In this document: piece by piece, positions 20,782 to 33,510 of the stretch
Position numbering within the stretch: the stretch's first letter is position 1
How the letters are laid out: each line of letters opens with the position of its first letter
IMG/VR virus record: IMGVR_UViG_3300049222_000458
Location: 1 to 34,590 of that record
Direction: 5' to 3' (one strand)
Length of the DNA: 34,590 nucleotides
Source: a virus
The notes under the pieces: generated by a model
What the model was told of the DNA's origin: nothing
What the model saw: the letters and a program-made list of their open reading frames with translations, nothing else
Databases searched by the model: none
Translations under genes and position numbers: made by a program

Positions 20782-20800
20782 TTATTTTTAAAAAAAGTTT

Positions 20801-20839
20801 AAAAAAAGTTTTTTATTAATAAAAATACGTGTATATTGC
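20801..20839 (+). promoter_or_regulatory. Early-type promoter, copy 1
   Basis: A block of seven A, G, then TTTTTTATTA (20801-20818) is followed 13 bases later by TATATTGC (20832-20839). The same arrangement occurs at 24212 and 31772 with the same spacing within one base. Each is followed by a similar leader (GAACAA, AATAACAAA, TACAGA) ending in the ATG. TATATTGC resembles the Bacteroidota -7 element TAnnTTTG, with a T-run 19 bases upstream in the -33 position. Start codon 20873. Confidence 0.68.
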
Positions 20840-20872
20840 TTCTGAACAAACAATAACAAAACATACAGAGCA

Positions 20873-21217
20873 ATGAAAATAAAAGTAATACAGAACAAAA
20901 GATTAGCAAGAAACGTAATGCACATGTCAGGTTTTAGAGCCTATCTAGGTGGTTGCATTAGTTATAAAGATCTAATAGACACATTTGGCGAGCCTACTTT
21001 TACTCCAGAAGATAGCGGAGACGGAAAAGTAAATTACGAATGGGTATTTCGATTTGACGACTCATACTTCAGCGTATACGATTGGAAAACTTATGACGAA
21101 GAATATACTCGTAATGAATATACTAATTGGCATATTGGTAGTCACGCCGGCGCTATAGATACTAATAATTTTATTAACGCCGTATTAGATCAAATGCGCG
21201 AATCACTTTTTGCTTAA
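20873..21217 (+). CDS. Conserved phage protein of unknown function
   Basis: 114 residues. The core has ISYKDLIDTFGEPTFTPED, YEWVFRFDDSYFSVYDWKTY and NWHIGSHAGAIDTNNF, a pattern (DLI-FGEP, then FSVYDWK, then WHIG) recurring in small proteins of many phages. No enzymatic residues stand out; a binding or regulatory role is possible. It is the first gene behind early promoter copy 1 and joins the next gene by TAATG overlap, so it is co-expressed with the modification-like cassette. Confidence 0.6.
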   Translation: MKIKVIQNKRLARNVMHMSGFRAYLGGCISYKDLIDTFGEPTFTPEDSGDGKVNYEWVFRFDDSYFSVYDWKTYDEEYTRNEYTNWHIGSHAGAIDTNNFINAVLDQMRESLFA

Positions 21218-22119
21218 TGAAGACGGCAATAGTAGGAATCCTAAATAACCCGGCCAAGTCGTTAAACTCACACTCGGCTGGCTGGGTTCATATTGTAAAA
21301 GAATTATTAGACAATAATGCTGTAATAGAAACCGAAAATGGTAATTGGGATCAGTATGACAGGTTAATAATCTGCCATGGTACTAATTATAAAGCCGGAT
21401 CTTTTAACGTTATAGGTGGCATACAGCAATCTCATATAAATAGATTACAAAAGCTTAATAATTTTAATGGCATTATAGATAGTTTAGATGATTTCGATGT
21501 ATTAGAATATATAGAAAAGCGTAAAATAGATTTTAAATGGACTAAGCCTAAAGAATTTTATAATAAAATATCTTTGCATAATTACGAAAAAGAAGTAATC
21601 GGAGATAGTCACTCCTTATCAGTATGGAGGCCTGGCTATAGTATTAATAGAAACGATGGTAAAACATTATTTGGTTTTTTAAAAAATCCTAGTGCTAAAA
21701 AAGGATCGATAATATACTTTGGAAATATAGATATAAGGTTCCATTTACCTAGACAAGACTCTGCTTTATTTGCTACGCTGCAATTAGCTAATAGGTATGT
21801 GGATTACTGTAAAGAAAATGATCTAACTCCAGTTTGTTTATTGCCTATAGAAAGTGAATCAAGGAAAATACCTAAAAGCGGCATGTACAAGGGTCAGCCA
21901 TTTTATGGCGATCAAAAGTTAAGATCTAAATTAGTAGAAATATTTAACGCAGTATTACTAGATAATTTAACTAACGTTATTACATGGCCAGAAAAATGGT
22001 ACAAAGATCTTTTGTTTTACGAGAATGAAGTAATGGAATCTAAGCAATCTGTGCACGTAAGGCCTAAGCATTATAAGCATAATTTCAATAAAAAGACTGA
22101 TGAGCCATTACTCTTTTGA
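21217..22119 (+). CDS. SGNH-hydrolase-like protein, candidate DNA modification accessory
   Basis: 300 residues in two parts. The first ~115 form a Rossmann-like region starting MKTAIVGILNNPAKS. The rest carries SGNH-type blocks: IGDSHSLSVW (Ser131 as possible nucleophile), YFGNIDIRFHLPR (Asn170, Asp172, Arg174, His176) and, near the end, KQSVHVRPKHY (His280). SGNH proteins are esterases, acyltransferases or, in degenerate form, binding proteins. It overlaps the aGPT-PPlase-like gene by 20 bp and the three genes are tightly coupled, so it probably acts on the same substrate, for instance attaching or removing an acyl group on a modified base. The fold call is moderate; the role is inference. 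Confidence 0.55.
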   Translation: MKTAIVGILNNPAKSLNSHSAGWVHIVKELLDNNAVIETENGNWDQYDRLIICHGTNYKAGSFNVIGGIQQSHINRLQKLNNFNGIIDSLDDFDVLEYIEKRKIDFKWTKPKEFYNKISLHNYEKEVIGDSHSLSVWRPGYSINRNDGKTLFGFLKNPSAKKGSIIYFGNIDIRFHLPRQDSALFATLQLANRYVDYCKENDLTPVCLLPIESESRKIPKSGMYKGQPFYGDQKLRSKLVEIFNAVLLDNLTNVITWPEKWYKDLLFYENEVMESKQSVHVRPKHYKHNFNKKTDEPLLF

Positions 22120-23140
22120 TATAAAGCCAGAGCTTCTTGAAATGCTAGATGATTACCATGATAAGTCTATGCTTATGGAGCGTCACGTAATAGAGAAAAA
22201 ACCTTTTGAAGGTGATCTAGAAAAAAAAGTAAATGACGATTTAATCTATAATGTTCCTATATATGATATGGGATCAAGGAAATATGCTGCTTTTTGTAAC
22301 TTTACTCAAGCAGTTGTTCACAAGGAAAAGGACGTAAAAGGAAATGGCAAATGGTTTAAAAATGCTGAGATAGCTGAGTTTGATTTGATATACATGATGT
22401 ATTTATTTAGACTATGCGGCAGCGGTATAAATTATAAGCCCATGCCTAGTGGTAATAATTTATTTGAAGACATACCTTTTTTAGGTAAACATGGATTCGG
22501 TAATTTTTGGATTGTAAACTCATTATTGCAAGGTAAGTACACGAAAGAAGAATGGATAAAAGATTTAACACATCATGACGGGCCTTTTAGCAATAACAAG
22601 GGTTACATAATACCTCAGTTTAGTATTGGCTTAAAACGATACATAGTAGATTACTCGGAAGATTTTTTACGCGCGTTATATAGCGAATTCACAAAGAGTA
22701 AAATGCAGATCTATCAATTGACCGACCTTGGTAATAAGATACTAAAAGAAAAATATGGATTTAAACGGCAAAACTTTGTTTTAACAGCGCTAGCTGCTGA
22801 CGTGGCAGAATATTTCCCTGAATATATAGACGCTAAAGGAATGGTTTACGCAGGTACTAATGCTCAATTATGTATTAAGACTTTGTTTAAAAAAACAAAA
22901 AGAATAAAAGACTTTGATTTCTTTAATGAAGTCTTGCGCTTTCAATCAGAAAGGTATAATTTAAATCCAATAGATTGCGAAGATAGTCGTAATTGTGACG
23001 TTATAAGATACTTAAGAGAATACCAGTCTAAGTGGCATATACAAAAAAACAATGGAAAAATAATGAAAAATAATTCTAGTTTAAAAAAGGAACTAGGTAA
23101 CAAAGGATATTATGAATATACAAGCGAAATTCAAAAATAA
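22100..23140 (+). CDS. HhH/DNA-glycosylase-fold protein of the aGPT-PPlase type, candidate thymine hypermodification enzyme
   Basis: 346 residues, mostly helical. Visible features match the alpha-glutamyl/putrescinyl-thymine pyrophosphorylase group (now split into amino acid:DNA transferases and the helical domain of 5-hmdU DNA kinases). These are a YAAFCNFTQAVVHKEKDV start of the core, FDLIYMMYLFRLCGSG, PFLGKHGFGNFWIVNSLLQ, VYAGTNAQLC near residue 254, and a C-terminal element NPIDCEDSRNCDVIRYLREY. The last resembles the family's ending 'D-E-LCE-KY-R'. Members act on 5-hydroxymethyluracil in DNA, replacing an activated hydroxymethyl with an amine. Sequence identity is too low to choose the exact activity by eye. 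It overlaps both neighbours. Confidence 0.55.
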   Translation: MSHYSFDIKPELLEMLDDYHDKSMLMERHVIEKKPFEGDLEKKVNDDLIYNVPIYDMGSRKYAAFCNFTQAVVHKEKDVKGNGKWFKNAEIAEFDLIYMMYLFRLCGSGINYKPMPSGNNLFEDIPFLGKHGFGNFWIVNSLLQGKYTKEEWIKDLTHHDGPFSNNKGYIIPQFSIGLKRYIVDYSEDFLRALYSEFTKSKMQIYQLTDLGNKILKEKYGFKRQNFVLTALAADVAEYFPEYIDAKGMVYAGTNAQLCIKTLFKKTKRIKDFDFFNEVLRFQSERYNLNPIDCEDSRNCDVIRYLREYQSKWHIQKNNGKIMKNNSSLKKELGNKGYYEYTSEIQK

Positions 23141-24026
23141 TCAAATAGGAATAGAAAATAAAGATCTAGATACGTTTAGAGATTTAAATTATTACTTAGA
23201 TATAACAAAAGATCACAAGAGCAGCTTTGAAGATTTCTGCATAATAAATGAAAATGGTTTTAATGTAATAGATGAATCTAAGGCTTGCCCTGTTGGTTAC
23301 AAAGCTAGAGCAGGCGAGTTATTAGTGCAAACATTAAAAAAGCAGGGTATAAAAGAGATCGTCTATGTTCAACCTAGAACAGGGTTTGCTGGCATAAGTC
23401 TTTCTTATTTATGTAAAATACATAACATGGACTTAACACTAGTTATGCCATCCTCAAGACGAGTAAGTGATCACCAGGCTTTATGTATAGAATACGGTGC
23501 TAAACCTTTATTTGTTAGAATAGCTGCTATGCCAGTGGCTAATTCTTATGCAAAAAAATATGCACAACAAAGTTCTAGTAGAAAATATATAAAGTTAGGC
23601 TTGTATCACGATCTTGTAATTGCCTGCGGGGTAAGATGCATATATGATTATTTTGTAAATAAAGAAAAACCGCGCGTAATGTGGTCAGCAATATCAACAG
23701 GTGTACTAACTAGGACATTGCAAATAGCGTTACCAGATACCGAGTTTAGAGCCGTAGCGGTCGCTAGGAATATACAACAAGGAGAATTAGGTAAGGCTAA
23801 GTTTTATGGTTACCATAAGAATTTCACATCAATTAGTGATTACGTACCGCTTGGATTTGAAACAGAGCCGACTTATGATGCTAAAGCTTTTGACTACATG
23901 AATAGATATGGAGACAAAGGTGATTGGTTTTTTAATGTTGCTGGTATTGCTCCAGAGCCTACCATAAATAGAAAAGATATACATTCTTATAGGGAATGGA
24001 GGGATTTAAGCGATCTAAACTTGTAG
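23112..24026 (+). CDS. PLP-dependent enzyme, tryptophan synthase beta / cysteine synthase superfamily
   Basis: 304 residues. CPVGYKARAGELLVQTL places a Lys (Lys64) and an Arg where the fold-II PLP Schiff-base lysine is expected. YVQPRTGFAGISLSYLCK corresponds to the substrate/PLP phosphate loop, LTLVMPSSRRVSDHQALCIE to the next strand-helix, and WSAISTGVLTRTLQIALPD to the Gly-rich cofactor loop. The order and spacing fit the superfamily (threonine dehydratase, cysteine synthase, ACC deaminase). It is diverged enough that host-type amino acid metabolism is unlikely. PLP enzymes occur in known thymidine-hypermodifying phages, acting on the amino acid attached to the base; this is the natural reading here. 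The stop codon abuts the 10-bp repeat array. Confidence 0.65.
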   Translation: MNIQAKFKNNQIGIENKDLDTFRDLNYYLDITKDHKSSFEDFCIINENGFNVIDESKACPVGYKARAGELLVQTLKKQGIKEIVYVQPRTGFAGISLSYLCKIHNMDLTLVMPSSRRVSDHQALCIEYGAKPLFVRIAAMPVANSYAKKYAQQSSSRKYIKLGLYHDLVIACGVRCIYDYFVNKEKPRVMWSAISTGVLTRTLQIALPDTEFRAVAVARNIQQGELGKAKFYGYHKNFTSISDYVPLGFETEPTYDAKAFDYMNRYGDKGDWFFNVAGIAPEPTINRKDIHSYREWRDLSDLNL

Positions 24027-24175
24027 TCAGATCTTAACAGATATTGTTAGTAGCCGTTAGTTATTGACAGATATTAAGACTCCATGTTAGTTATTGTTAG
24101 CAGTTGTTAGTTATTGTCAGTTATTGTAACAACATGTCAGTTATTGTTAGTTATTGTTAGCAGTTGCTAGCCATA
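24026..24175 (+). repeat. Fifteen-unit array of 10-bp repeats (consensus GTTAGTTATT)
   Basis: Starting at the last base of the PLP gene stop codon, the DNA can be cut into 15 consecutive decamers. Exact GTTAGTTATT lies at 24056, 24086, 24106 and 24146; GTCAGTTATT at 24116 and 24136; GTTAGCAGTT at 24096 and 24156. Related units are GTCAGATCTT (24026), AACAGATATT (24036), GTTAGTAGCC (24046), GACAGATATT (24066), AAGACTCCAT (24076), GTAACAACAT (24126) and GCTAGCCATA (24166). Units are helically phased (about one turn) with no spacers. It fills most of the 255-bp gap (24027-24281), the longest gene-free stretch in the window. Likely a binding array: operator, origin or packaging site. Confidence 0.85.
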
Positions 24176-24211
24176 ATAGCCATATTTTTACCATGTTTTA
24201 AAAAAAATTTT

Positions 24212-24251
24212 AAAAAAAGTTTTTTATTAATCTGGATTGTGTGTATATTCC
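24212..24251 (+). promoter_or_regulatory. Early-type promoter, copy 2
   Basis: Seven A, G, TTTTTTATTAA (24212-24230), then TGTATATTCC with the -7-like box at 24244-24251. It matches copies at 20801 and 31772; its spacing is one base longer. The leader that follows (AACAACAATAACAAAACTAC, then AGAATC) leads to ATG 24282. It drives the small-gene and recombination cluster, and the decamer array ends 36 bp upstream, so a protein bound there could control it. Confidence 0.68.
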
Positions 24252-24281
24252 TTATAACAACAATAACAAAACTACAGAATC

Positions 24282-24503
24282 ATGACAACAAATAAACACC
24301 ATAACGTAACACTATTAGAACTAATTGAAAAGAACCAAGACCAATTAGATTCATTACGTTCAAGAAAACACTCTGAAAATGCAACACAAGAATGGATAGA
24401 TGTAATGGATAGCCATTGGGATGTTGAGCATTGGTTGATTACAGAAGTAATAAAGCCTGCACTAAAAGAGGCTTTAGTAAATCAAGAGTTGAAAAACTGG
24501 TAA
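24282..24503 (+). CDS. Small early protein of unknown function
   Basis: 73 residues, acidic and helical (VTLLELIEKNQDQLDSLRSR, then WDVEHWLITEVIKPALKEAL). It is the first gene after early promoter copy 2, a place where phages often put host-takeover or anti-defence genes. No motif links it to a family. A leader with the shared AATAACAAAAC element precedes the ATG. Confidence 0.6.
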   Translation: MTTNKHHNVTLLELIEKNQDQLDSLRSRKHSENATQEWIDVMDSHWDVEHWLITEVIKPALKEALVNQELKNW

Positions 24504-24513
24504 ACATAACATT

Positions 24514-24696
24514 ATGAAAAACTATCAAATAAACATTATCAAAGAATACGTATCTACTGCTTTAATTAGCGATGATCCTGAAGAACATTTACATATAATT
24601 TTAGAAAGATTGTTAGACTATCTAAATGTAGAGCAGTTAGAAAATGAACTAGAGTTTATGTATCAATTTGAAAAACAAATGCCTTTAAGAAAATGA
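24514..24696 (+). CDS. Small early protein of unknown function
   Basis: 60 residues, acidic and predicted all-helical (INIIKEYVSTALISDDPEEH, then LDYLNVEQLENELEFM). It ends in a short basic tail, LRK. Translation is linked to the next membrane protein through an ATGA overlap. No family is recognised. Confidence 0.58.
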   Translation: MKNYQINIIKEYVSTALISDDPEEHLHIILERLLDYLNVEQLENELEFMYQFEKQMPLRK

Positions 24697-24842
24697 AACT
24701 ACTAGCTTACATTTGTGGCTTTATCTTCTTCTTCTTTCTTATGGTAGAAGGTGAAACATTAAAGCACATACTTATACAATTTGCAACAATAACAATAACT
24801 GGAACATACCTAGTATATTATGTCAATAGAAGAACCGTATAA
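24693..24842 (+). CDS. Tiny membrane protein
   Basis: 49 residues from ATG 24693 (ATGA overlap with the previous stop) to TAA 24840-24842. Two hydrophobic segments: residues 3-18 (LLAYICGFIFFFFLMV) and 24-41 (HILIQFATITITGTYLVY), then a positively charged end (NRRTV) consistent with the cytoplasm. The next gene begins inside it. Possible roles such as superinfection exclusion are only guesses. Confidence 0.55.
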   Translation: MKLLAYICGFIFFFFLMVEGETLKHILIQFATITITGTYLVYYVNRRTV

Positions 24843-25242
24843 CTTGATCAAGAAGGTAGAAGGAGGGCAGCTAAAGGCAAGTAATGCCTATGTAACACTC
24901 CGTGCTTTAAAAAGCGAAATTGAATATGCTATAAAGCAAATAGAAAGTCAAATCATTGACGAACTAACTTATTTAGATAGCAAAGAAGCTCTAGTTGTAA
25001 ATGGGTACAAAATTACTCATGTTGCAGGTAGATCATCTTATGACTATAAAGAAAGTTCAATGTGGAAAGAAGCAGACACAGAAAAGAAGCGAATCGAAAG
25101 ATTAATAAAGGTAGCAACTAAAGACGGCGTGTCAATAGTGGACCAACATACTGGTGAAATAATAGAGCCGGTAAAAATTAAACAAGGAAACGGATATATA
25201 AAAATGGAACAAACAAATGAAGATTTACAAAAAATTATTTAA
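24820..25242 (+). CDS. Phage protein preceding ERF, unknown function
   Basis: 140 residues. A helical N-terminal half (LKASNAYVTLRALKSEIEYA, IKQIESQIIDELTYL) is followed by GYKITHVAGRSSYDYKESSM and a charged end. Proteins of this plan frequently precede single-strand annealing proteins in phage operons and are thought to assist recombination, but no activity is established. It starts within the preceding membrane gene and overlaps the ERF gene by 26 bp. Confidence 0.6.
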   Translation: MSIEEPYNLIKKVEGGQLKASNAYVTLRALKSEIEYAIKQIESQIIDELTYLDSKEALVVNGYKITHVAGRSSYDYKESSMWKEADTEKKRIERLIKVATKDGVSIVDQHTGEIIEPVKIKQGNGYIKMEQTNEDLQKII

Positions 25243-25753
25243 AGTAACAAGTACAATGGATAAGATGAAAAAGGATTCTACTAATCCTTTTTATAATAGT
25301 AAATACTTTGACATTAATCAACTAGTAGAAGCCGTAAGGCCTGCATTAATTGCAGAGGACTTATTGCTATTACAGCCAATAAGAGATAATCAAGTTGGTA
25401 CTATTATTATTGACACGGAAAGCGGTGATTCAGTAGAGGCGTTTCTACCTTTACCAGATCTACAAGATCCACAAAAAATTGGATCATGTATTACATACTA
25501 CCGTAGATACACATTGCAATCATTACTAGGTATAGAAGCCGAAGATGATGATGGCAATAAAGCAGTCGGGCCTAAGCCAGAGGTATCTAAAGCATTTAAA
25601 AAAGATGATAAAAAGCCTTGGCTTAACGAGGGCCAACCAGAGTGGGATAAAGCTGAGGACTGGGTTAAATCAGGAGGGGACCCTAAGCTTTTACGGCAAA
25701 AGTATGCAATATCTAAGCCTAATATGGATTACTTCTATTCTATTGCTAAATGA
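25217..25753 (+). CDS. erf: ERF-family single-strand annealing protein
   Basis: 178 residues. The ERF core is unmistakable: KKDSTNPFYNSKYFDINQLV, then LIAEDLLLLQPIRDNQ, and the GSCITYYRRYTLQSLLGIEA motif followed by EDDDGN. These Redbeta-like recombinases anneal complementary single strands in phage recombination and circularise or concatenate genomes. A lysine-rich linker joins a small C-terminal domain with WLNEGQPEWDKAEDWVKSGG, often present in this family. It stands with SSB, NinB-like and NinG genes in one operon. The start at 25217 overlaps the preceding gene; a start 13 codons later (ATG 25256) is possible. Confidence 0.88.
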   Translation: MKIYKKLFKVTSTMDKMKKDSTNPFYNSKYFDINQLVEAVRPALIAEDLLLLQPIRDNQVGTIIIDTESGDSVEAFLPLPDLQDPQKIGSCITYYRRYTLQSLLGIEAEDDDGNKAVGPKPEVSKAFKKDDKKPWLNEGQPEWDKAEDWVKSGGDPKLLRQKYAISKPNMDYFYSIAK

Positions 25754-26133
25754 AATTCAAAAGAATGTTTAGAATAACAGACGGCGAAACGACTAAGGCT
25801 TGGAAGTTTGACCTCCGGGACTATTTAGCTTCCTTGCCTAATGGTGAATATACCATAGAAGTATGTAAGACCATTAACAGTAGAAGCGCTGAACAAAACA
25901 AGCTTTACTGGAAATGGATAGCAATAATAAGTGAAGATTTAGGTTATTACCCAGAGGAGCTACACGAGGCTTTTATAGATCAATTTTCACCTGTTTATAC
26001 AACTAGGGACTTAAACAAGAAACCAAAACAAAAAAGAACAAGAACTAGCCAGATGAACGTGGATCAGATGTCTAAATATATGGACCGTATTTCACACTTC
26101 TGTGCTGAACACTCAATTAAACTACCATTATGA
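25750..26133 (+). CDS. NinB-like recombination protein
   Basis: 127 residues. A short strand-rich beginning (KRMFRITDGETTKAWKFDLR) leads to TINSRSAEQNKLYWKWIAII and LGYYPEELHEAFIDQFSP, the pattern of NinB and related ssDNA-binding recombination mediators. A lysine-rich stretch and the helix SQMNVDQMSKYMDRISHFCA follow. In lambda NinB links recombination with SSB-coated DNA. Coupling by ATGA to ERF, and NinG downstream, supports the call. Confidence 0.72.
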   Translation: MKFKRMFRITDGETTKAWKFDLRDYLASLPNGEYTIEVCKTINSRSAEQNKLYWKWIAIISEDLGYYPEELHEAFIDQFSPVYTTRDLNKKPKQKRTRTSQMNVDQMSKYMDRISHFCAEHSIKLPL

Positions 26134-26324
26134 CACCAGAAAAAGAACTAGAACAAATACGTGAATGGCTTGCAACTCAGGATTTAGATGAGCTAAGCTA
26201 CGATGTACAAATACCTGTACCTAGACTGAGGGCATTTAGAAATATGCAAACAGTAGATCCCGCATATACTACAATACGTAAATTACAAAATTATAAAAAT
26301 GGAAATAATAAAAGTATTACTTGA
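26130..26324 (+). CDS. Small helical protein, possible HTH, paralogue-like to 32918
   Basis: 64 residues. KELEQIREWLATQDLDELSY, then VPRLRAFRNMQTVDPAYTTI: an amphipathic helix followed by a helix-turn-helix-sized segment. The plan matches the protein at 32918 (EEQEIWEWLQDK, IYYFKNGKAKNASFQLIRSL), with shared W, L and N positions. Both could be small DNA-binding regulators of the Cro type. ATGA coupling joins it to the NinB-like gene. Confidence in function is low. Confidence 0.55.
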   Translation: MTPEKELEQIREWLATQDLDELSYDVQIPVPRLRAFRNMQTVDPAYTTIRKLQNYKNGNNKSIT

Positions 26325-26454
26325 TTCAATAGACTTAATAGCTAAAATACTGGGATTCTTATCTCTATACGCAATAGCTATAGCTTTATTAGATTGGCGA
26401 AAGACGTCTAATTACGAACAACAATGTAATGATATAAAAAATGGGCCTAAGTAA
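26299..26454 (+). CDS. Tiny membrane protein
   Basis: 51 residues from ATG 26299 to TAA 26452-26454. A single hydrophobic helix covers residues 13-31 (LIAKILGFLSLYAIAIALL), followed by a polar, basic end (DWRKTSNYEQQC). It overlaps its neighbours at both ends in the same style as the surrounding genes. No function is known; tiny membrane proteins are scattered through this phage (2750, 24693). Confidence 0.55.
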   Translation: MEIIKVLLDSIDLIAKILGFLSLYAIAIALLDWRKTSNYEQQCNDIKNGPK

Positions 26455-26863
26455 AAGTAAAAACCTAAGCACTGCTAAAAAAACATGCGACGCGTGGTTT
26501 AGTAAGTACATACGAATACGAGATGCGAATCATAATGGCTTATGTAAATGTATTACTTGTAACACTGTCAAGCATTGGAAAGAAATGGATTGCGGTCACT
26601 TTCAAAGCCGTAGATTTATGGCTACAAGATGGCACGAACAGAATGCACATGCACAATGTCAATCCTGTAATAAATATAACGCAGGTGAACAGTACCGACA
26701 CGGCATCGAAATAGACTTATTATACGGTGAAGGAACGGCAGATTATTTAGAACAATTGTCTAGGAGCATGATTAAACTTAATAAGGTTGATGTCATGGAA
26801 CTAGCGCAATATTATCAACAAGAAACAATAAAACTAGCAAAACAAAAATCATTAGAATTATGA
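26441..26863 (+). CDS. ninG: NinG (Rap)-like Holliday junction endonuclease
   Basis: 140 residues. The NinG signature is present: STAKKTCDAWFSKYIRIRDA, CKCITCNTVKHWKEMDCGHF (a Cys pair, then Cys and His), FMATRWHEQNAHAQC and QSCNKYNAGEQYRHG. The cysteines and histidines bind zinc. Lambda NinG/Rap cleaves branched recombination intermediates. Here it sits in the ERF-NinB-NinG-SSB cluster, which is a full set for recombination-dependent replication. Confidence 0.9.
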   Translation: MGLSKSKNLSTAKKTCDAWFSKYIRIRDANHNGLCKCITCNTVKHWKEMDCGHFQSRRFMATRWHEQNAHAQCQSCNKYNAGEQYRHGIEIDLLYGEGTADYLEQLSRSMIKLNKVDVMELAQYYQQETIKLAKQKSLEL

Positions 26864-27264
26864 ATAAAGCAATATTAATAGGTAGACTAGGCAGCAATCC
26901 TGAAACAAGATTTACGCAAAGCAATACACCAGTATGTAACTGGTCTTTAGCAACTAGCAAAAAAGTAAAAGGCGAAGATAAAACAGAATGGCATAACATT
27001 GTGGCATTTAGCAAAACGGCTGAAATAGCACAACAATACTTAACTAAAGGTTCTTTGGTTTGTATTGAAGGCTCTATTACTACAAGCCAATATGAAAAAA
27101 ATGGCGAAAAGCGTTACAGCACACAGATTATCTGTGATAGACTAGAGATGCTAGGTGGTATGAATAATAACGATAATAAAGATTGCGCGTTAGAACAAAA
27201 ACCTGGAAGCCAGAAAGTAGACATAAGCAACTGGGATCAAATATCAGACGATTTACCTTTTTAA
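26860..27264 (+). CDS. ssb: Single-stranded DNA-binding protein
   Basis: 134 residues. The OB-fold begins MNKAILIGRLGSNPETRFTQ, continues SLATSKKVKGEDKTEWHNIV and YLTKGSLVCIEGSITTSQYE, and the protein ends in the acidic interaction tail DDLPF as in bacterial SSBs. The intact tail suggests contacts with host replication and repair proteins. The linker is short. It starts by ATGA overlap with the NinG gene. Confidence 0.93.
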   Translation: MNKAILIGRLGSNPETRFTQSNTPVCNWSLATSKKVKGEDKTEWHNIVAFSKTAEIAQQYLTKGSLVCIEGSITTSQYEKNGEKRYSTQIICDRLEMLGGMNNNDNKDCALEQKPGSQKVDISNWDQISDDLPF

Positions 27265-27266
27265 TT

Positions 27267-27515
27267 ATGGAAACAGAATACAAAGTACTACAAAAAATAG
27301 GGCCTTATGATGGTCCTTATCAAAAAAATCTAGTAACTTATATACTACTTTCTAAAAGCAAAAGAGTAGCATGGCATGAAAAGCCTGGTAGAAAGTTTCC
27401 TTATAACAAAGGAGACGTTGTTACAGGCATAGCGCTAAAAGGCGACAATATAGATTACAAAAAATCAAATCCTAAACTAATATTAAAACAACTTAATTTT
27501 TATGGAAATATTTAA
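27267..27515 (+). CDS. Small beta-rich protein of unknown function
   Basis: 82 residues from ATG 27267; upstream in-frame codons lie inside the SSB gene and are rejected. Strand-rich with many aromatic and lysine residues (TEYKVLQKIGPYDGPYQKNL, RVAWHEKPGRKFPYNKGDVV). The size and pattern suggest a small barrel. Two bases separate it from the SSB gene and it overlaps the MazG-like gene by 14. No family recognised. Confidence 0.55.
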   Translation: METEYKVLQKIGPYDGPYQKNLVTYILLSKSKRVAWHEKPGRKFPYNKGDVVTGIALKGDNIDYKKSNPKLILKQLNFYGNI

Positions 27516-27816
27516 TAACATAAGATCATGGGCTAACGAAAGAGGCCTTTATGACAAAGGAGATACTAAAACTCAATTTATTAAACTAAACGAAGAGGTA
27601 GGAGAATTAGCAGAAGCTATACTAAAAAAAGATGAAAAAGAAGTCATCGATGCTATAGGTGATATAGTAGTTGTCCTTACAAATTTAACATACTTAGCAA
27701 ATGTTGATATAATTAGATCAGATTATATTAGGATAGAGGACTGCGTGCAATCGGCATATAATGAAATAAAAGATAGAAAAGGTAAGATGGATAATGGAAC
27801 CTTCAAAAAAGCATGA
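27502..27816 (+). CDS. MazG-like nucleotide pyrophosphohydrolase
   Basis: 104 residues. The metal-binding ExxE...ExxD motif is visible: KLNEEVGELAEAIL (EEVGE) and KEVIDAIGDIVVVL (ExxD-like, with IDAIGD). Helical all-alpha NTP pyrophosphohydrolases of this type cleave dNTPs or NTPs to monophosphates. In a nucleotide operon with dCMP deaminase it may remove dUTP or a canonical dNTP that competes with a modified one, or lower ppGpp. Overlaps its neighbours at both ends. Confidence 0.82.
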   Translation: MEIFNNIRSWANERGLYDKGDTKTQFIKLNEEVGELAEAILKKDEKEVIDAIGDIVVVLTNLTYLANVDIIRSDYIRIEDCVQSAYNEIKDRKGKMDNGTFKKA

Positions 27817-28201
27817 TCTATACATGCGTATAGCCGAAGCAGTCGCATTAAGTAGTCACTGCAAAAGAAGCAAAGTTGGTTGTATTATTGTAAAAAATGA
27901 TAATATTATAGGTATTGGCTACAATGGTACGCCTTCTGGCTTTGAAAATAACTGCGAATGTAATAACGTTACAAAAGACGAGGTTTTACACGCGGAGTCA
28001 AATGCAATAACAAAATGTGCTAAAAGCACTATAAGTTCAGACGGTTCTGTAATGTACTGTACATTAATGCCTTGTTTTAATTGCGCTAAATTAATAATTC
28101 AAAGCGGTATTAAGCAAGTTGTTTACAAAGACGATTATAGAAATAGATCAGGAATAAAACTATTAACAAAAGCAAATATAGAGGTTTTAAAATATGAATA
28201 A
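27794..28201 (+). CDS. Deoxycytidylate (dCMP) deaminase
   Basis: 135 residues. Zinc-dependent deaminase with HAESNAI (His66, Glu68) and TLMPCFNCAKLI (Cys94, Cys97), an N-terminal VALSSHCKRSKVGCIIVKND and GIGYNGTPSGFENNCE, all typical of dCMP deaminases. It makes dUMP from dCMP and so feeds the TS-family enzyme two genes downstream. Phages with modified thymidine or cytidine often carry it to redirect pyrimidine pools. Usually regulated by dCTP/dTTP; the sequence does not tell whether that applies here. Confidence 0.9.
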   Translation: MEPSKKHDLYMRIAEAVALSSHCKRSKVGCIIVKNDNIIGIGYNGTPSGFENNCECNNVTKDEVLHAESNAITKCAKSTISSDGSVMYCTLMPCFNCAKLIIQSGIKQVVYKDDYRNRSGIKLLTKANIEVLKYE

Positions 28202-28466
28202 ATCATTATGCGAAATAGCACATGAAATAGTAAACGAAAGAAGCGAAGAAAAAGAAAGAGAATACGGGCCCTTCTCTGAAGGGATGGAAAGAGCCGCACA
28301 TATATTATCAGGATTAATTGGATACGAAGTATACGCTGAGCACATGTATTTAGCGATGATAGCTTTAAAATTAAGTAGAGAATCATACAACCATAAAAAG
28401 GATAATTTATTAGACGCGATAGCATATTTACAAGGATTAGAAAATTATTATAATGAAAACAAATAA
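28194..28466 (+). CDS. Small MazG-like/DUF6378-like helical protein
   Basis: 90 residues. The pattern REYGPFSEGMERAAHILSGL, then EHMYLAMIALKLSRESYNH and DNLLDAIAYLQGLENYY corresponds to a small all-alpha family found next to phage nucleotide genes (R-YG, ALKL-R and D-DAI-Y). The invariant acidic residues resemble those of MazG-type pyrophosphohydrolases. The activity is unproven. It sits between dCMP deaminase and the TS-family gene with overlaps on both sides. Confidence 0.65.
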   Translation: MNKSLCEIAHEIVNERSEEKEREYGPFSEGMERAAHILSGLIGYEVYAEHMYLAMIALKLSRESYNHKKDNLLDAIAYLQGLENYYNENK

Positions 28467-29097
28467 CGCAACAACAGCCTTTGAGTATTATTACGATTTA
28501 ATTATAAATATCGGCAAATCAAAAAAAGGCACAAAATATTTAAGAAATATTTCATTTACGATGCTAAACCCATTGGATAATGTTATAAGTACAAAGTGGA
28601 GAAATTTTAACGTAGACTACGCTGAAAGAGAATGGCAATGGTATTTATCAGCTGATAGGAACATAAGCGCCATGGAGCCACCTGTGCCTAAGATATGGCA
28701 AGATATTAGCGATGATAATGGTGATACATTCTCTAACTATGGGTGGCAATGGCAAAGATCTAACCAGATTGATTATGTAATAAATGAATTGAGATCTAAT
28801 CCTACAAGTAGAAGGGCTTGTATTTCGATATATGATGCAAAAGAAAACCAAGATTGGATAAGAGACGTTCCATGTACTCTAGCCATCTGTTTCTATATAG
28901 AAGATGATTCTTTATGCATGAGCGTATACATGCGATCTAATGATCTAGTCTTTGGATTTTGTAATGATCAATACTGCTTTAGTAAGCTACAAGAGTATAT
29001 AGCCAAAGAAATTAATATAAAAATTGGTTATTATCATCACTCTGCTACAGATTTACATATATACAAAAGACACTTTGATCTGAAGAAAAATGGATAA
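28453..29097 (+). CDS. Thymidylate-synthase-family pyrimidine 5-hydroxymethylase-like enzyme
   Basis: 214 residues, shorter than ThyA (264) and T4 dCMP hydroxymethylase (246). Family features: YGWQWQRSNQIDYVINELRS, TSRRACISIYD, the catalytic cysteine in DVPCTLAICFYI (Cys141), YMRSNDLVFGFCNDQY (Arg161, Asp164) and DLHIYKRHF (His202, Tyr204). Counting from Asp164, the residue equivalent to ThyA Asn177 is Asp172. The same ND arrangement occurs in T4 gp42 (MRSNDVVFGFRND), where Asp gives dCMP preference. So a hydroxymethylase rather than a thymidylate synthase is suggested, acting on dCMP or dUMP. The nearby dCMP deaminase and the 21-24 kb cassette favour a role in base modification. Confidence 0.75.
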   Translation: MKTNNATTAFEYYYDLIINIGKSKKGTKYLRNISFTMLNPLDNVISTKWRNFNVDYAEREWQWYLSADRNISAMEPPVPKIWQDISDDNGDTFSNYGWQWQRSNQIDYVINELRSNPTSRRACISIYDAKENQDWIRDVPCTLAICFYIEDDSLCMSVYMRSNDLVFGFCNDQYCFSKLQEYIAKEINIKIGYYHHSATDLHIYKRHFDLKKNG

Positions 29098-29743
29098 AGG
29101 ATGGATTAAACTACACAGGCAATTCCTTGAGTGGGAATGGTATGACGAGCCAAATTGTTTGCGGGTATTTTTACACTGCTTACTAAAGGCTAATCATAAA
29201 GATAAGCGATATAGAGGTGATGTGATTAAGCGAGGTACCTTTGTTACAAGCTTAGAAATACTTTCATTCGAACTAAACCTAACTGTACAGCAAATTAGAA
29301 CTGTTTTTGACAAACTGGAAAGCACTGGTGAGATTAACAGGCAAAGTAACAGACGTGGAACTATTCTAAGTATATGTAATTACAACAATTATCAAAATGA
29401 GGAAACAAAAAATAACAAACAGGATAACAGGAAAGTAACAGGAAAACAACAGACGTCTAACAGAAAACTAACAGGTACTAAGAATGAAAAGAATGAAAAG
29501 AATGAAAACAATATAGTACCCACACTATCTGAAGTAGAAGAATACTTTAAAGAATCTAATAAGATAGATAAAAGCCATGTTAAGTTAGAAGCTGAGAATT
29601 TTATCAACCATTATGAATCATTAGACTGGAAGCGTAATCGTAAAAAGATTAAAAACTGGAAGCTCCAGGCTTCTACTTGGTCAAATAATTATTTAAAATT
29701 CAATACAACAAAAAGAAATGTTCACGATAACCCATTTGATTAA
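29090..29743 (+). CDS. DnaD-like replication initiator
   Basis: 217 residues. Residues 1-100 form a winged-helix N-terminal domain of the phage replisome-organiser type (WIKLHRQFLEWEWYDEPNCL, then GTFVTSLEILSFELNLTVQQ and RTVFDKLESTGEINRQS). Residues 105-145 are a low-complexity linker (repeats NRKVTG and NRKLTG, then KNE three times). The C-terminal part (FINHYESLDWKRNRKKIKNW, LQASTWSNNYLKF) is a DnaD-like tail. Such proteins open the origin and recruit the host helicase loader. The DNA encoding the linker carries phased 11-bp repeats, as with the lambda O gene, so the origin may lie inside this gene. Confidence 0.8.
   Translation: MDKGWIKLHRQFLEWEWYDEPNCLRVFLHCLLKANHKDKRYRGDVIKRGTFVTSLEILSFELNLTVQQIRTVFDKLESTGEINRQSNRRGTILSICNYNNYQNEETKNNKQDNRKVTGKQQTSNRKLTGTKNEKNEKNENNIVPTLSEVEEYFKESNKIDKSHVKLEAENFINHYESLDWKRNRKKIKNWKLQASTWSNNYLKFNTTKRNVHDNPFD
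29335..29479 (+). repeat. Iteron-like phased TAACAG repeats inside the initiator gene
   Basis: TAACAG or a close variant occurs at 29335, 29347 (12 bp apart) and then 29413, 29425, 29436, 29447 (as CAACAG), 29458 and 29469, that is at steps of 12, 11, 11, 11 and 11 bp. Eleven bp is about one helical turn and is not a multiple of three, so a protein repeat alone would not produce it. An AT-rich run with three AAGAATGAA units (29480-29506) follows directly, a candidate unwinding element. Confidence 0.7.
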
Positions 29744-30288
29744 TGAAAATACAAATAGCCAATAACAAACAAGACGCTAAGAACTATAGTAGCTCAGGGA
29801 TAGAATTTGATTACTCAAATGATCTTATGAAACTATTGTACGACTTCCATACTGATATAGGTGCGACTAAGGAATTGCCAACTGATAAGGTTAAGGTAAA
29901 GGAGTATCTTATAAGATTACATGAGACTATAACCATAAAGAATCCACTATACCCAAATGATGTTAACTTTGATATGATATATGGTGTATGGATGATGGCT
30001 GTGATATATGAAGAAGCACCAAGGTATGGTAATAATATATCAGCACTAGCAAGGTGTTTTAATGAATGGTATAAAAAAAATTCTGATCAATTTATTAAAT
30101 CTAGTCAAGAACATTTAGTTAGTAAGTACAGAAATATTACAGACTTTACAAATGTAGAAATCGCACGACTCCATGATGTTGTAGAAATGCTAAATGATGG
30201 TGATTTAATTGGTGGTTTGTTTAATACAGGAGGAGCTAAATCATTCTTCAAAAGGTTAAAATCTGAGTATATTGCAAGAGGTTTGTAA
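29743..30288 (+). CDS. Protein following the initiator, possible helicase loader or partner
   Basis: 181 residues, mostly helical (YSNDLMKLLYDFHTDIGATK, VNFDMIYGVWMMAVIYEEAP, NNISALARCFNEWYKKNSDQ). The start overlaps the initiator stop (TAATG). In many phages the gene after a DnaD-like initiator encodes a helicase loader or inhibitor, but no Walker motif is present, so an AAA+ loader is excluded. It could be a small adaptor for host DnaB. Not recognised as any family. Confidence 0.55.
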   Translation: MKIQIANNKQDAKNYSSSGIEFDYSNDLMKLLYDFHTDIGATKELPTDKVKVKEYLIRLHETITIKNPLYPNDVNFDMIYGVWMMAVIYEEAPRYGNNISALARCFNEWYKKNSDQFIKSSQEHLVSKYRNITDFTNVEIARLHDVVEMLNDGDLIGGLFNTGGAKSFFKRLKSEYIARGL

Positions 30289-30304
30289 TTTTTTTGTATA
30301 TTAT
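30272..30304 (+). promoter_or_regulatory. Putative promoter before terminase genes
   Basis: TTG (30272-30274) and TATATTAT (30297-30304), 22 bp apart. TTTGTATATT (from 30293) is shared with early promoter copy 3 (31798-31807). Only 25 bp separate it from ATG 30330, with a T-rich leader. The box is weaker than those of the three repeated promoters, and its longer spacing makes the call tentative. Confidence 0.4.
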
Positions 30305-30329
30305 ACTTAATTAATCAAGTTTTTTCAAG

Positions 30330-30584
30330 ATGGCACACGGTGGTAAAAGAGCAGGAGCAGGTAGAAAGCCTAAGGCTGATGAAATATCCATGATACAATC
30401 TATGGATGCTACATTAGCACCAATAGAGGTATGGCAAAAATTAGCTCTTAGAGTTAACGAAGGATCTGACACAGCGATAAAGACTTGGTTATCTTATAGG
30501 TATGGGCAACCTAAGCAAAGCGTAGACCATACAACTGATGGCGATAAAATAGAAAGCGTAACGGTGAGAATAATTGAACCATAG
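30330..30584 (+). CDS. terS: Terminase small subunit
   Basis: 84 residues. It begins AHGGKRAGAGRKPKADEISM, the Gly/Arg/Lys-rich start common among small terminase subunits, followed by a helical segment with APIEVWQKLALRVNEGSDTA and TWLSYRYGQPKQSVDHTTDG. It recognises the packaging site and regulates the large subunit. At 84 residues it is short, but the position directly before terL supports the call. The terL start lies 11 bases before its stop. Confidence 0.8.
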   Translation: MAHGGKRAGAGRKPKADEISMIQSMDATLAPIEVWQKLALRVNEGSDTAIKTWLSYRYGQPKQSVDHTTDGDKIESVTVRIIEP

Positions 30585-31761
30585 CTTTGATGCAAATAAG
30601 CTTTATTCATTAACCTATAATAGCAGGAAGCCCTACATAGTTCATCAAGGTGGCACTTCAAGCGGGAAGACTTATGCTATATTGCAAGTCTTAATAATGA
30701 AAGCCGCCACTATACCCAGCTTAGTAATAACAGTCGTAGGCCAAGATATACCTAACTTAAGGGTAGGCGCCTATAGAGATGCTCAAAGCATTATATTTAA
30801 TGATCCATTCTTTACGCAAGAGCTTAAAGATCACAACAAGAGTAACAGGCTTTTTACTTTTAGCACTGGATCTAAGATTGAATTTAATTCATATAATGAC
30901 GAGATAGATGCTAGATCAGGTAAAAGAACCCATTCTTTTTTTAACGAGGCTAATGGTATAGATTACGGCATATTTGAGCAGATCAGCATGCGAACTACCG
31001 AGCAGACTATTATTGACTTTAACCCGTCTGCCGCGTTTTGGGCACATGAAAGATTACAAAGCAGAGACGATGTTGATTGGTTCGTATCTACATTTAGAGA
31101 TAATGCATTTATACAGTCTAGTATTAAACAAAAGATACAAAGCTACGAGCCAACTGATGAGAATATAAAAGCCGGTACAGCAAATCAATACCGATGGCAA
31201 GTATATGGATTAGGAGAGGTAGGTAGGTTAGAAGGCTTGGTGTTTCCTAATTTTGAGATTACAAGCGAGTGGCCTGATAATTACAAATGGCGATGCTTTG
31301 GCCTTGATTGGGGATATACAAATGATCCTACAGCTTTAGTAGAAATAAGGTATAATGGTGGCGCGCTATATTGGAAAGAGCATATTTATAGAAAGCAACT
31401 TACCAACCAATATATTAGTCGTTTAATCAAAGAATTGAACATAACTGATGAAATAGTAGCAGATAGCGCTGAGCCTAAAAGTATTGCCGAGTTACGTAAT
31501 ACAGGTGTATGGGTAAAGCCTGCTAAGAAAGGCAAGGATTCTGTCATGTTTGGAATTCAATTACTACAAGACTATCCTATAAAAATACATACTAAAAGTA
31601 AAAACATAATCGAGGAATTTAGCAGTTATACATGGGCAAAGGATAGAAGTGGCACATCAACAAACAAACCTATAGATGATTTTAACCACGCTATAGATGC
31701 AGGTAGGTATGCAATAATGGACAGAATGAAGAAAAAAACACTAGATATATCACTTGCTTAA
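30574..31761 (+). CDS. terL: Terminase large subunit (ATPase and nuclease)
   Basis: 395 residues, read from TTG 30574; no ATG lies near the beginning and the Walker A motif is at residues 26-33, so a later start is ruled out. ATPase motifs: GGTSSGKT (Lys32) and the Walker B-like HSFFNEAN (Glu125). Nuclease acidic residues: FGLDWGYTNDPTAL (Asp245), VADSAEPKSI (Asp297) and NHAIDAGRYA (Asp375). It drives DNA into procapsids and cuts concatemers. It belongs to the PBSX/Terminase_3-type family. Packaging type (pac or cos) is not decided by sequence; a headful mechanism would fit the circularly closing contig. Confidence 0.93.
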   Translation: MNHSFDANKLYSLTYNSRKPYIVHQGGTSSGKTYAILQVLIMKAATIPSLVITVVGQDIPNLRVGAYRDAQSIIFNDPFFTQELKDHNKSNRLFTFSTGSKIEFNSYNDEIDARSGKRTHSFFNEANGIDYGIFEQISMRTTEQTIIDFNPSAAFWAHERLQSRDDVDWFVSTFRDNAFIQSSIKQKIQSYEPTDENIKAGTANQYRWQVYGLGEVGRLEGLVFPNFEITSEWPDNYKWRCFGLDWGYTNDPTALVEIRYNGGALYWKEHIYRKQLTNQYISRLIKELNITDEIVADSAEPKSIAELRNTGVWVKPAKKGKDSVMFGIQLLQDYPIKIHTKSKNIIEEFSSYTWAKDRSGTSTNKPIDDFNHAIDAGRYAIMDRMKKKTLDISLA

Positions 31762-31771
31762 AAAATAATTT

Positions 31772-31810
31772 AAAAAAAGTTTTTTATTATTAAATAAGTT
31801 TGTATATTGC
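31772..31810 (+). promoter_or_regulatory. Early-type promoter, copy 3
   Basis: Seven A, G, TTTTTTATTATTAA (31772-31793), then TTTGTATATTGC with the -7-like box at 31803-31810. It has the same architecture and spacing as copy 1 (20801). The leader GAACAATTAATAACAAACTA, then CAGAACA, leads to ATG 31842, the true start of the following gene. Confidence 0.68.
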
Positions 31811-31841
31811 TCTTGAACAATTAATAACAAACTACAGAACA

Positions 31842-32054
31842 ATGACAAATACAAAACAAGATTTCGACACGCTTTCAGCAAAAGCATATAGCTCTATACA
31901 AGATCTAATTGAATATTGCAATAATAATAACGAATCAGAAGAGGCTGCTCTTTTAATGAGTATAAAAATAGAGATGATACGATTCGAGGATCGTATGACT
32001 TATGGTGAAAATAAAAATAACAAACCAAACCTTTTACCTTACCAAAGAGTTTAA
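31842..32054 (+). CDS. Small early protein of unknown function
   Basis: 70 residues from ATG 31842. A TTG at 31800 would place the promoter inside the gene and is rejected. The protein is acidic and helical (TKQDFDTLSAKAYSSIQDLI, then NNESEEAALLMSIKIEMIRF), ending in a Lys/Pro-rich tail. It is the first of a block of seven very small genes between terminase and portal, all behind promoter copy 3. No family recognised. Confidence 0.6.
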   Translation: MTNTKQDFDTLSAKAYSSIQDLIEYCNNNNESEEAALLMSIKIEMIRFEDRMTYGENKNNKPNLLPYQRV

Positions 32055-32057
32055 ATA

Positions 32058-32249
32058 ATGAAAGAACAAAAAGTGTATTATTACCTTTACAATTTTACCT
32101 CAGGTGGGTGGAATTGTGAGACAACTAGAACAATGGCGGAAGCTAGAAAGCAAGCAAAAAAAAGATTCCCTAATAGCGATATAGATTTAAAAAGCTTTAG
32201 AAGAATCTCATACAATGATCTACAATCTTTACTATTTGAAACACGATAA
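32058..32249 (+). CDS. Small basic protein of unknown function
   Basis: 63 residues. A tyrosine-rich start (KEQKVYYYLYNFTSGGWNCE) is followed by a basic helix (TMAEARKQAKKRFPNSDIDL) and FRRISYNDLQSLLF. A compact alpha/beta protein is likely, possibly nucleic-acid binding from its charge. Three bases separate it from the previous gene. Confidence 0.55.
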   Translation: MKEQKVYYYLYNFTSGGWNCETTRTMAEARKQAKKRFPNSDIDLKSFRRISYNDLQSLLFETR

Positions 32250-32259
32250 CAAATAACAA

Positions 32260-32277
32260 GGGCTACTTCGGTAGCCC
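32260..32277 (+). other. Very stable UUCG hairpin within a conserved leader
   Basis: GGGCTAC (32260-32266), TTCG, GTAGCCC (32271-32277): a 7-bp stem closed by the C(UUCG)G tetraloop. There is no following T-run, so it is not a classical terminator. It splits a leader like those of the early genes: AACAAATAACAA lies before it and ACTACAGAACAATG after. It may protect or divide the transcript, or regulate the gene at 32295. Confidence 0.7.
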
Positions 32278-32294
32278 ACTAAAACTACAGAACA

Positions 32295-32516
32295 ATGGAA
32301 AACGTAATAGCAAAAATACAAAACAGAATAGAACAAAACGAGCGAAGAATCATAGCGTTAATTGATTTTATGCAAAGTGTAAAAAAAGATGAATACAAAA
32401 AAGAATTACGCTTAGAAGCAAGGCTACTTAGAAACCAAAACATTGCATTTAAAGAAACTTTAGAAATGATACAATTTGAAGCAGACGGGCAATACTCTAA
32501 TAATTTAAACAGATAA
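32295..32516 (+). CDS. Small coiled-coil-like protein of unknown function
   Basis: 73 residues, highly charged and helical (IAKIQNRIEQNERRIIALID, then KKELRLEARLLRNQNIAFKE). The arrangement fits a short coiled coil. The leader ends ACTACAGAACA just before the ATG, similar to those of the early promoter genes though no promoter box is directly upstream. No family recognised. Confidence 0.58.
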   Translation: MENVIAKIQNRIEQNERRIIALIDFMQSVKKDEYKKELRLEARLLRNQNIAFKETLEMIQFEADGQYSNNLNR

Positions 32517-32532
32517 CAAAATACAGATAATA

Positions 32533-32739
32533 ATGACTGGAACACTTAGAACTATAGAATGCAAAGACTGGAAAAATGAACCCATTACTTATTATGAAAT
32601 GGATTTAAAATTCCAACACGCCTACCATAACTTTACCTACTTCAGCTTAGAAGGTGAAAGCATGATTGGATTCACGGACCGTATTAGATACGAAGTACGT
32701 AAGATGTATGGCGCAGAACTCACATGGGTAGAAGAATGA
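32533..32739 (+). CDS. Small protein of unknown function
   Basis: 68 residues with a strand-rich, aromatic sequence (GTLRTIECKDWKNEPITYYE, then FQHAYHNFTYFSLEGESMIG). The end (YGAELTWVEE) overlaps the next start as ATGA. A small barrel fold is possible. It is likely an early accessory protein. Confidence 0.55.
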   Translation: MTGTLRTIECKDWKNEPITYYEMDLKFQHAYHNFTYFSLEGESMIGFTDRIRYEVRKMYGAELTWVEE

Positions 32740-32918
32740 TTAAATGCGAATGTTCAGACGAAGAACTAGAAATAGAAGATTTGGAAATCGAAGACAATAG
32801 TTTTGATCATGCATTCGGTACAAAATACGAATATGAAGTCACATGCCCAGAATGCGGCGCATCCATGGGCGAATTTGCAAGCGTAGAAGAAGTTATAGAA
32901 GCTAAACGAGGATATTAA
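32736..32918 (+). CDS. Small zinc-ribbon-like acidic protein
   Basis: 60 residues from ATG 32736 (ATGA overlap). Four cysteines in two pairs: CEC (residues 4 and 6) and CPECG (residues 41 and 44), separated by an acidic stretch (SDEELEIEDLEIEDNSFDHA). The pairs could bind zinc, in the way of small transcription-related ribbons. It may target host RNA polymerase or another nucleic-acid protein; no family is proven. Confidence 0.55.
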   Translation: MIKCECSDEELEIEDLEIEDNSFDHAFGTKYEYEVTCPECGASMGEFASVEEVIEAKRGY

Positions 32919-33109
32919 TGATACAACCACACAAAGAAGAACAAGAAATATGGGAATGGCTTCAAGATAAGCACGTTCCAGATCTAGCAAGAAAAACTGG
33001 ACTAGGTACAACACCCATTTATTATTTTAAGAATGGTAAAGCTAAAAATGCTAGCTTCCAGTTAATACGTTCACTTCAATTAATAAAACAAAAAGAATGT
33101 ACACGTTAG
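32918..33109 (+). CDS. Small HTH-like DNA-binding protein
   Basis: 63 residues. EEQEIWEWLQDKHVPDLARK, then TGLGTTPIYYFKNGKAKNAS and FQLIRSLQLI: the order helix, 'LARKTGLG' turn, recognition-like helix matches small Cro/XRE-type domains. It resembles the protein at 26130. It starts at the last base of the previous stop (TAATG) and overlaps the DnaA-like gene by 13 bp. It could regulate one of the early promoters. Confidence 0.58.
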   Translation: MIQPHKEEQEIWEWLQDKHVPDLARKTGLGTTPIYYFKNGKAKNASFQLIRSLQLIKQKECTR

Positions 33110-33417
33110 CACTAGATGCCTTTAAGCGATTTGAACAATGTATTACTGGGGAACTAGAAGATAATCACGTAGAACTGATTGCAGAATTTTGCAACAAGAT
33201 AAACATAGGCTATGATGCTTTGTTTATTAAAAGTAGAAAATCTAAGTTTGTTAATTACCGTTCACTATTCTTTAACTGGGTAAACTTAAGTCATGTAGAG
33301 CTTGCAAGATTGTTTAATATGCACCATTCTAGTATTATGCACTTAAGGCAAGACCATGCTAATAGATTGAAGTACGACAATCAGTACAAAGATTTACATA
33401 AAAGATTGATATTTTAG
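33097..33417 (+). CDS. DnaA domain IV-like DNA-binding protein
   Basis: 106 residues. The middle and C-terminal part (SRKSKFVNYRSLFFNWVNLS, then HVELARLFNMHHSSIMHLRQ) matches the C-terminal duplex-binding domain of DnaA: a basic SRK start and the FxxxHHSSIM helix-turn-helix in place of the usual HTTV motif. The AAA+ part is absent, so it can bind DNA but not assemble as an initiator. It may occupy DnaA boxes of the host or help at the phage origin. It is the last gene before a strong terminator. Confidence 0.72.
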   Translation: MYTLALDAFKRFEQCITGELEDNHVELIAEFCNKINIGYDALFIKSRKSKFVNYRSLFFNWVNLSHVELARLFNMHHSSIMHLRQDHANRLKYDNQYKDLHKRLIF

Positions 33418-33442
33418 TAGAGTTATACATTCTGTAGATATG

Positions 33443-33474
33443 CCACTTGATTTGAAAGTCAGGTGGTTTTTTTT
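33443..33474 (+). terminator. Intrinsic terminator between early genes and portal
   Basis: CCACTTGA (33443-33450) and TCAGGTGG (33459-33466) form an 8-bp stem with one G-T pair and an 8-base loop, followed by eight T (33467-33474). It separates the small early genes from the late head genes. It is the best terminator in the window. Confidence 0.85.
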
Positions 33475-33510
33475 GCTTATTTCAATAGTTGTAAATATTT
33501 GTTAATTTAG
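33472..33510 (+). promoter_or_regulatory. Possible late promoter before portal
   Basis: TTTG (33472-33475), 18 bp, then AATATTTG (33494-33501), one mismatch from TAnnTTTG; TAATTTAG (33503-33510) is another near-match also seen at 19859 before the phosphoesterase. It lies between the terminator and ATG 33533, where a late promoter is needed. The -33 element overlaps the terminator T-run. Tentative. Confidence 0.35.

Follow-up and report, generated by a model that had tools for sequence, protein, structure and literature searches.

The window, by which we mean the whole stretch of 34,590 nucleotides that was analyzed, is an IMG/VR virus record (IMGVR_UViG_3300049222_000458). Its last 22 bases (34569-34590) are identical to its first 22 (1-22) and, because the ends overlap in this way, the record very likely represents an entire phage genome of ~34.57 kb, assembled as a circle. 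The portal ORF extends off the right end, and the evident genes are all on the + strand. A search of INPHARED by DNA found no close phages, and the protein matches in that collection were two, both weak, to the PALP-like protein. The features at and around the locus are the following.

20787-20872, + strand: P1, which nearly repeats the promoter region of P2 (-10 TATATT at 20832-20837); it lies on the left border of the cassette and has no array
20873-24026, + strand: lineage-specific four-gene cassette (products of 114, 300, 346 and 304 aa, the fourth PALP-like) that stops at the array
24026-24175, + strand: decamer array of 15 head-to-tail units, consensus GTYAGTTATT, core TTGTYAG, reading toward P2
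24181-24188, + strand: possible -10-like element CATATTTT (TATATTTT in L007, from the related contig IMGVR 3300017762_000073), proposed from sequence only
24197-24223, + strand: A/T tracts TTTTAAAAAAAATTTTAAAAAAAG immediately 5' of P2, which P1 has too
24244-24249, + strand: putative P2 -10 (TATATT), followed by the leader AACAACAATAACAAAACTACAG and an ATG at 24282
24282-33417, + strand: putative operon 3' of P2, with ERF recombinase, NinB/NinG-like proteins, nucleotide enzymes, a DnaD-like initiator, a TerS-like protein and TerL
29414-29479, + strand: origin-type iterons TAACAGGAAAN with an 11-bp period, inside the DnaD-like initiator gene and separate from the array

Promoter-leader near-duplicates (20787-20872 and 24196-24281) are found on both sides of the cassette. 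Because they bracket it, insertion of the cassette by recombination at this conserved promoter-leader sequence is suggested. The window also encodes thymidylate-synthase-family, deoxycytidylate-deaminase-family and MazG proteins, which together with the cassette suggest a putative thymidine-hypermodification pathway. The promoter-leader layout of P2 recurs in relatives, with 3.8% divergence between the window and L007, and P2 is presumably an active promoter; scans for sigma-70 promoters and terminators returned sites that were not above those of shuffled sequences. The genes from 24282 to 33417 would form a single operon as judged from their order. At the end of this early operon, the hairpin CCACTTGA...TCAGGTGG followed by T8 (33440-33475) is likely a terminator, and relatives keep the hairpin. 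The last gene of the early module (33097-33417) codes for a 106-aa protein ending in an HTH, which we take to resemble DnaA domain IV; PHROGs and Pfam gave no family match for this protein. When the region after gene 33097 (late promoter) was checked for the array decamers, only two TTGT words located 10 bp apart were found.

The array exactly occupies the gap between the stop codon of the PALP-like gene and the conserved P2 promoter/leader. Its description in the initial annotation, 15 gapless 10-bp units spanning 24026-24175 that begin at a stop codon and have no coding frame, was correct: the first base of the array is the final base of the TAG of gene 23112-24026, and no ORF of at least 50 aa lies within it. 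The unit variants were also as described, with four exact copies of GTTAGTTATT (24056, 24086, 24106 and 24146), two of GTCAGTTATT (24116 and 24136) and two of GTTAGCAGTT (24096 and 24156), as were the 20-bp block present at 24086 and again at 24146 and the five TTGTTAG words. The column profile (counts out of 15) is G13 T11 Y13 A15 G13 n n n T12 T13; column 4 is an A in every unit, and columns 1, 5 and 10 are G, G and T in 13 of the 15. The mean identity at lags of 10, 20 and 30 bp is 0.59, as compared with 0.278 (sd 0.034) for the window, making the array the top-scoring place and the strongest short-period signal in it, and none of 2000 dinucleotide shuffles reached this score. These results confirmed that the array is real and far beyond chance. 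Identity is also high at longer lags (0.67 at 50 bp and 0.66 at 60 bp), which shows that blocks were copied as well as units. The proposal that the units are helically phased held only in part. The decamer period is there, but it is exactly 10.0 bp and not 10.5 bp, so that the face drifts by ~7 bp, or roughly two thirds of a helical turn, over the 15 units and these lie only roughly, rather than strictly, on one side of the helix.

Relatives were sought through the PALP-like gene, the 346-aa gene, the 114-aa gene, ERF and the metallophosphoesterase, and the array was present in only one other contig, that of L007 (also L003, L004 and L165). A comparison of unit number among related phages had been proposed. 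The 15 units are kept in L007 with no indel and 11 substitutions in 147 positions (7.5%), none of them in columns 2, 4, 5 or 7, but about 12 other relatives have no array, many of them sharing the same junction and some represented by contigs of 28-34 kb. Third-position divergence from L007 is 14-20% in most nearby genes (g300, 13.6%; PALP, 17.0%; ERF, 16.2%; terL, 19.7%), with outliers at the metallophosphoesterase (22.6%), the initiator (10.1%) and gene 22100 (only 6.9%), while the promoter regions diverge by 3-4%. Since the array has changed less than the third positions of most of its neighbors, it is likely under constraint, as gauged from one genome pair. The HTH-like proteins encoded at 26130, 32918 and 33097 had been named as candidates for binding the array. 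They are 78-91% identical in the array-less relatives L008, L009 and L011 and, being conserved where the array is absent, are not obvious partners.

Similar arrays were searched for in IMG/VR using four consecutive copies of the degenerate pattern GNYAGNNNWT, which was derived from this array, with the pattern read backwards as control. The pattern matched 107 stretches, some of them perfect simple repeats, versus 37 for the reversed control. In 21 of the 107, no more than 60 bp separate the start of the array from the stop codon of a DUF1492/sigma70-r4-like gene, as compared with 2 of 34 control loci, and the proteins concerned group into 11 clusters at 60% identity. These Ltr-adjacent arrays are oriented toward a TATAAT-like element, located in most cases 11-28 bp past the array, and HNH, TerS or TerL genes come after them in many of the cases examined. 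Examples of such stop-codon arrays include L057, L064, L077, L080, L097, L118, L129, L135, L141 and L150, among others. We predict that the decamer arrays located at the stop codons of these DUF1492/sigma-r4-like late activators of Gram-positive phages are operators. To avoid the bias of the pattern, 12 phages were chosen by their regulator gene and not by an array; in 10 of them, 10 bp was the best period among 8-13 bp around the stop codon, several exceeding the shuffle maximum and others being weak, with cores that vary. In phage phi13, deletion of repeats placed like these abolishes the Ltr-dependent promoter, and Alt of TP901-1 binds four direct repeats between -76 and -32; the phi13 repeats are 18 bp long, so a 10-bp period is not universal (PMC13123087). 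A separate set of GTTAG-type decamer arrays was observed directly 5' of TerL (L073, L082, L084, L092, L098, L111, L133, L137 and L142). In the window, HMMs built from 8 and 21 Ltr-like proteins gave no significant match to an Ltr/DUF1492-like protein.

The array had been offered as origin iterons, as an operator for the recombination operon or as a packaging site. The operator is the best supported of these candidates, through its location just 5' of P2, the constraint on its sequence and the layout of activator arrays elsewhere. We put at about even the chance that the array is a lineage-specific, Ltr-like, cis-acting operator that acts on the promoter just downstream. In such a mechanism, a phage or host DNA-binding protein would bind the TTGTYAG core in one decamer after another, oligomerizing head-to-tail along the DNA. 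The occupied array would set the activity of P2 (~24244) or, possibly, that of the nearer -10-like element at ~24181 (CATATT, or TATATT in L007), which lies ~11 bp past the last YAG core and is weaker than the -10 of P2. The activity of that promoter would thereby set the expression of the early recombination/replication/terminase operon. We infer protein binding, regulation and activation at the array, activation by the binder being more likely than repression if Ltr-type late activators are taken as the model, and the candidate binder could come from the host or be an unrecognized phage protein. The evidence against an operator includes the lack of an Ltr-like match in the window, the early character of the operon, the ~70 bp between the array and the -10 of P2, and a unit number above that of any Ltr array found. 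In addition, P1, a near-copy of the promoter, has no array, relatives have the same junction without any array, and only two genomes carry it, so the constraint comes from one comparison. A more specific version is possible though doubtful: in this phage, which would fall outside the Gram-positive groups, an unrecognized regulator would coat the 15-unit array to switch on the early/recombination operon, as a highly diverged or independent version of the head-to-tail Ltr arrangement that was acquired with the hypermodification genes.

The alternatives that were tested are a drifting repeat, origin iterons, a packaging site and an RNA element, and all of them came out as less likely than an operator. 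The array could be a tandem repeat that arose by slippage and segmental copying, has little function or none, and is at present drifting. Its nested copies at 20, 30, 50 and 60 bp and its confinement to one lineage would fit such an origin. Against it stand the unchanged unit number, the lack of indels and the unaltered core columns 4 and 5 in L007, and a divergence which, in a comparison of two genomes only, is below that of the third positions of most neighbors, gene 22100 excepted. The location at a promoter also argues against a neutral repeat, which is an unlikely explanation.

It is quite unlikely that the array is bound by the DnaD-like initiator (gene 29090), be it for autoregulation or as a second origin. 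On its reverse strand the unit has CTAACA, as do some of the iterons in the initiator gene; when TAACA/TGTTA words are counted over 150-bp stretches of the window, the array (8) and the initiator repeats (7) rank highest, and both consist of head-to-tail direct repeats. However, two random repeats of 10-11 bp would have a 5-mer in common on either strand in about 1 in 5 cases by our estimate, so the sequence link drawn in the initial annotation between the array and the initiator repeats is weak evidence. The 11-bp iterons of this phage are inside the initiator gene, 5 kb from the array, and occur also in array-less relatives, and the best match of an iteron matrix within the array ranks about 67th genome-wide; both disfavor origin iterons at this place. 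The suggested inspection of GC skew was uninformative, since the skew is one-sided along the genome with no origin signal at the array. The initiator genes of many relatives (L009-L018 and L166-L184) contain tandem repeats with an 11-bp period and lineage-specific units, which likely are origin iterons.

That the array is a packaging (pac/cos) site for a ring-shaped small terminase, with one HTH per decamer, is very improbable. Some decamer arrays in other contigs adjoin terminase genes, the overlapping contig ends are consistent with a permuted genome, and ring-shaped terminases display many HTHs (PMC4737164). Nonetheless, TerS (at 30330) and TerL are 6 kb from the array, and the DNA-binding domain of the SF6 small terminase showed little specificity for pac repeats. 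Moreover, a close TerS occurs without the array, which disfavors this candidate: the protein is 76-88% identical in the array-less relatives L008, L009 and L011, reaching 85-88% in L009 and L011, and the records of these two, 31-32 kb in length, lack the array. Finally, an RNA element in the cassette transcript (a terminator, an attenuator or a binding site) is very unlikely, because the fold of the array RNA, somewhat stronger than that of shuffles (z ~ -2.4) and accompanied in some relatives by a hairpin-like sequence at this junction, is not kept in L007, where 6 of the 8 changes at paired bases disrupt the pairing and the L007 sequence, placed on the structure of the window, has an energy of -23.6 kcal/mol versus -35.6 kcal/mol for the window itself; a conserved RNA structure was thus rejected, and an Rfam search of the array gave no match.

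If the operator reading is true, exact 10-bp head-to-tail operator arrays would be a way of controlling promoters that recurs in unrelated phages, with the present array as the longest of them found here. It could be used as bait for the missing regulator. The link between decamer arrays and the stop codons of DUF1492/Ltr genes, seen in 11 protein clusters, makes the predicted operators of many phage late activators directly testable.

Among known systems, phage origin iterons located in initiator genes resemble the array in being tandem direct repeats and in having TAACA in common with it. They differ in their 11-bp period, in their consensus, in their position inside the initiator gene and in their presence in array-less relatives. 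The pac regions of SPP1 and SF6 also consist of direct repeats near a promoter, but they are located at the small terminase gene, 6 kb away in the present case. The arrays upstream of TerL (L084, L111, L133 and relatives) share GTTAG-type decamers with this array; they have 4-6 units and differ in adjoining TerL, L084 having in addition a divergent TerS-like gene. The closest comparison is with the operators of the Ltr/ArpU/Alt/RinA type (TP901-1 Alt, phi13 Ltr; DUF1492). In these systems the operons are late, whereas the operon of P2 is early/recombination and begins with recombination genes instead of leading into HNH-TerS-TerL; here no Ltr gene is adjacent or elsewhere in the genome; the 15 units are more than in any Ltr array found (about 4-8); and the distance to the -10 is ~70 bp in the case of P2 instead of ~11-28 bp. 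Because there is no Ltr-like protein, the operon is early and the -10 of P2 is too far, the array cannot be filed as an Ltr operator. The likeness lies in the architecture: head-to-tail direct repeats, mostly with a 10-bp period, that start at the stop codon of the preceding gene or close to it, and a TGnYAG-type core that faces the promoter, a resemblance that is partly by construction since the search pattern came from this array. The spacing of the possible -10-like element at 24181 also resembles that of the promoters of Ltr arrays.
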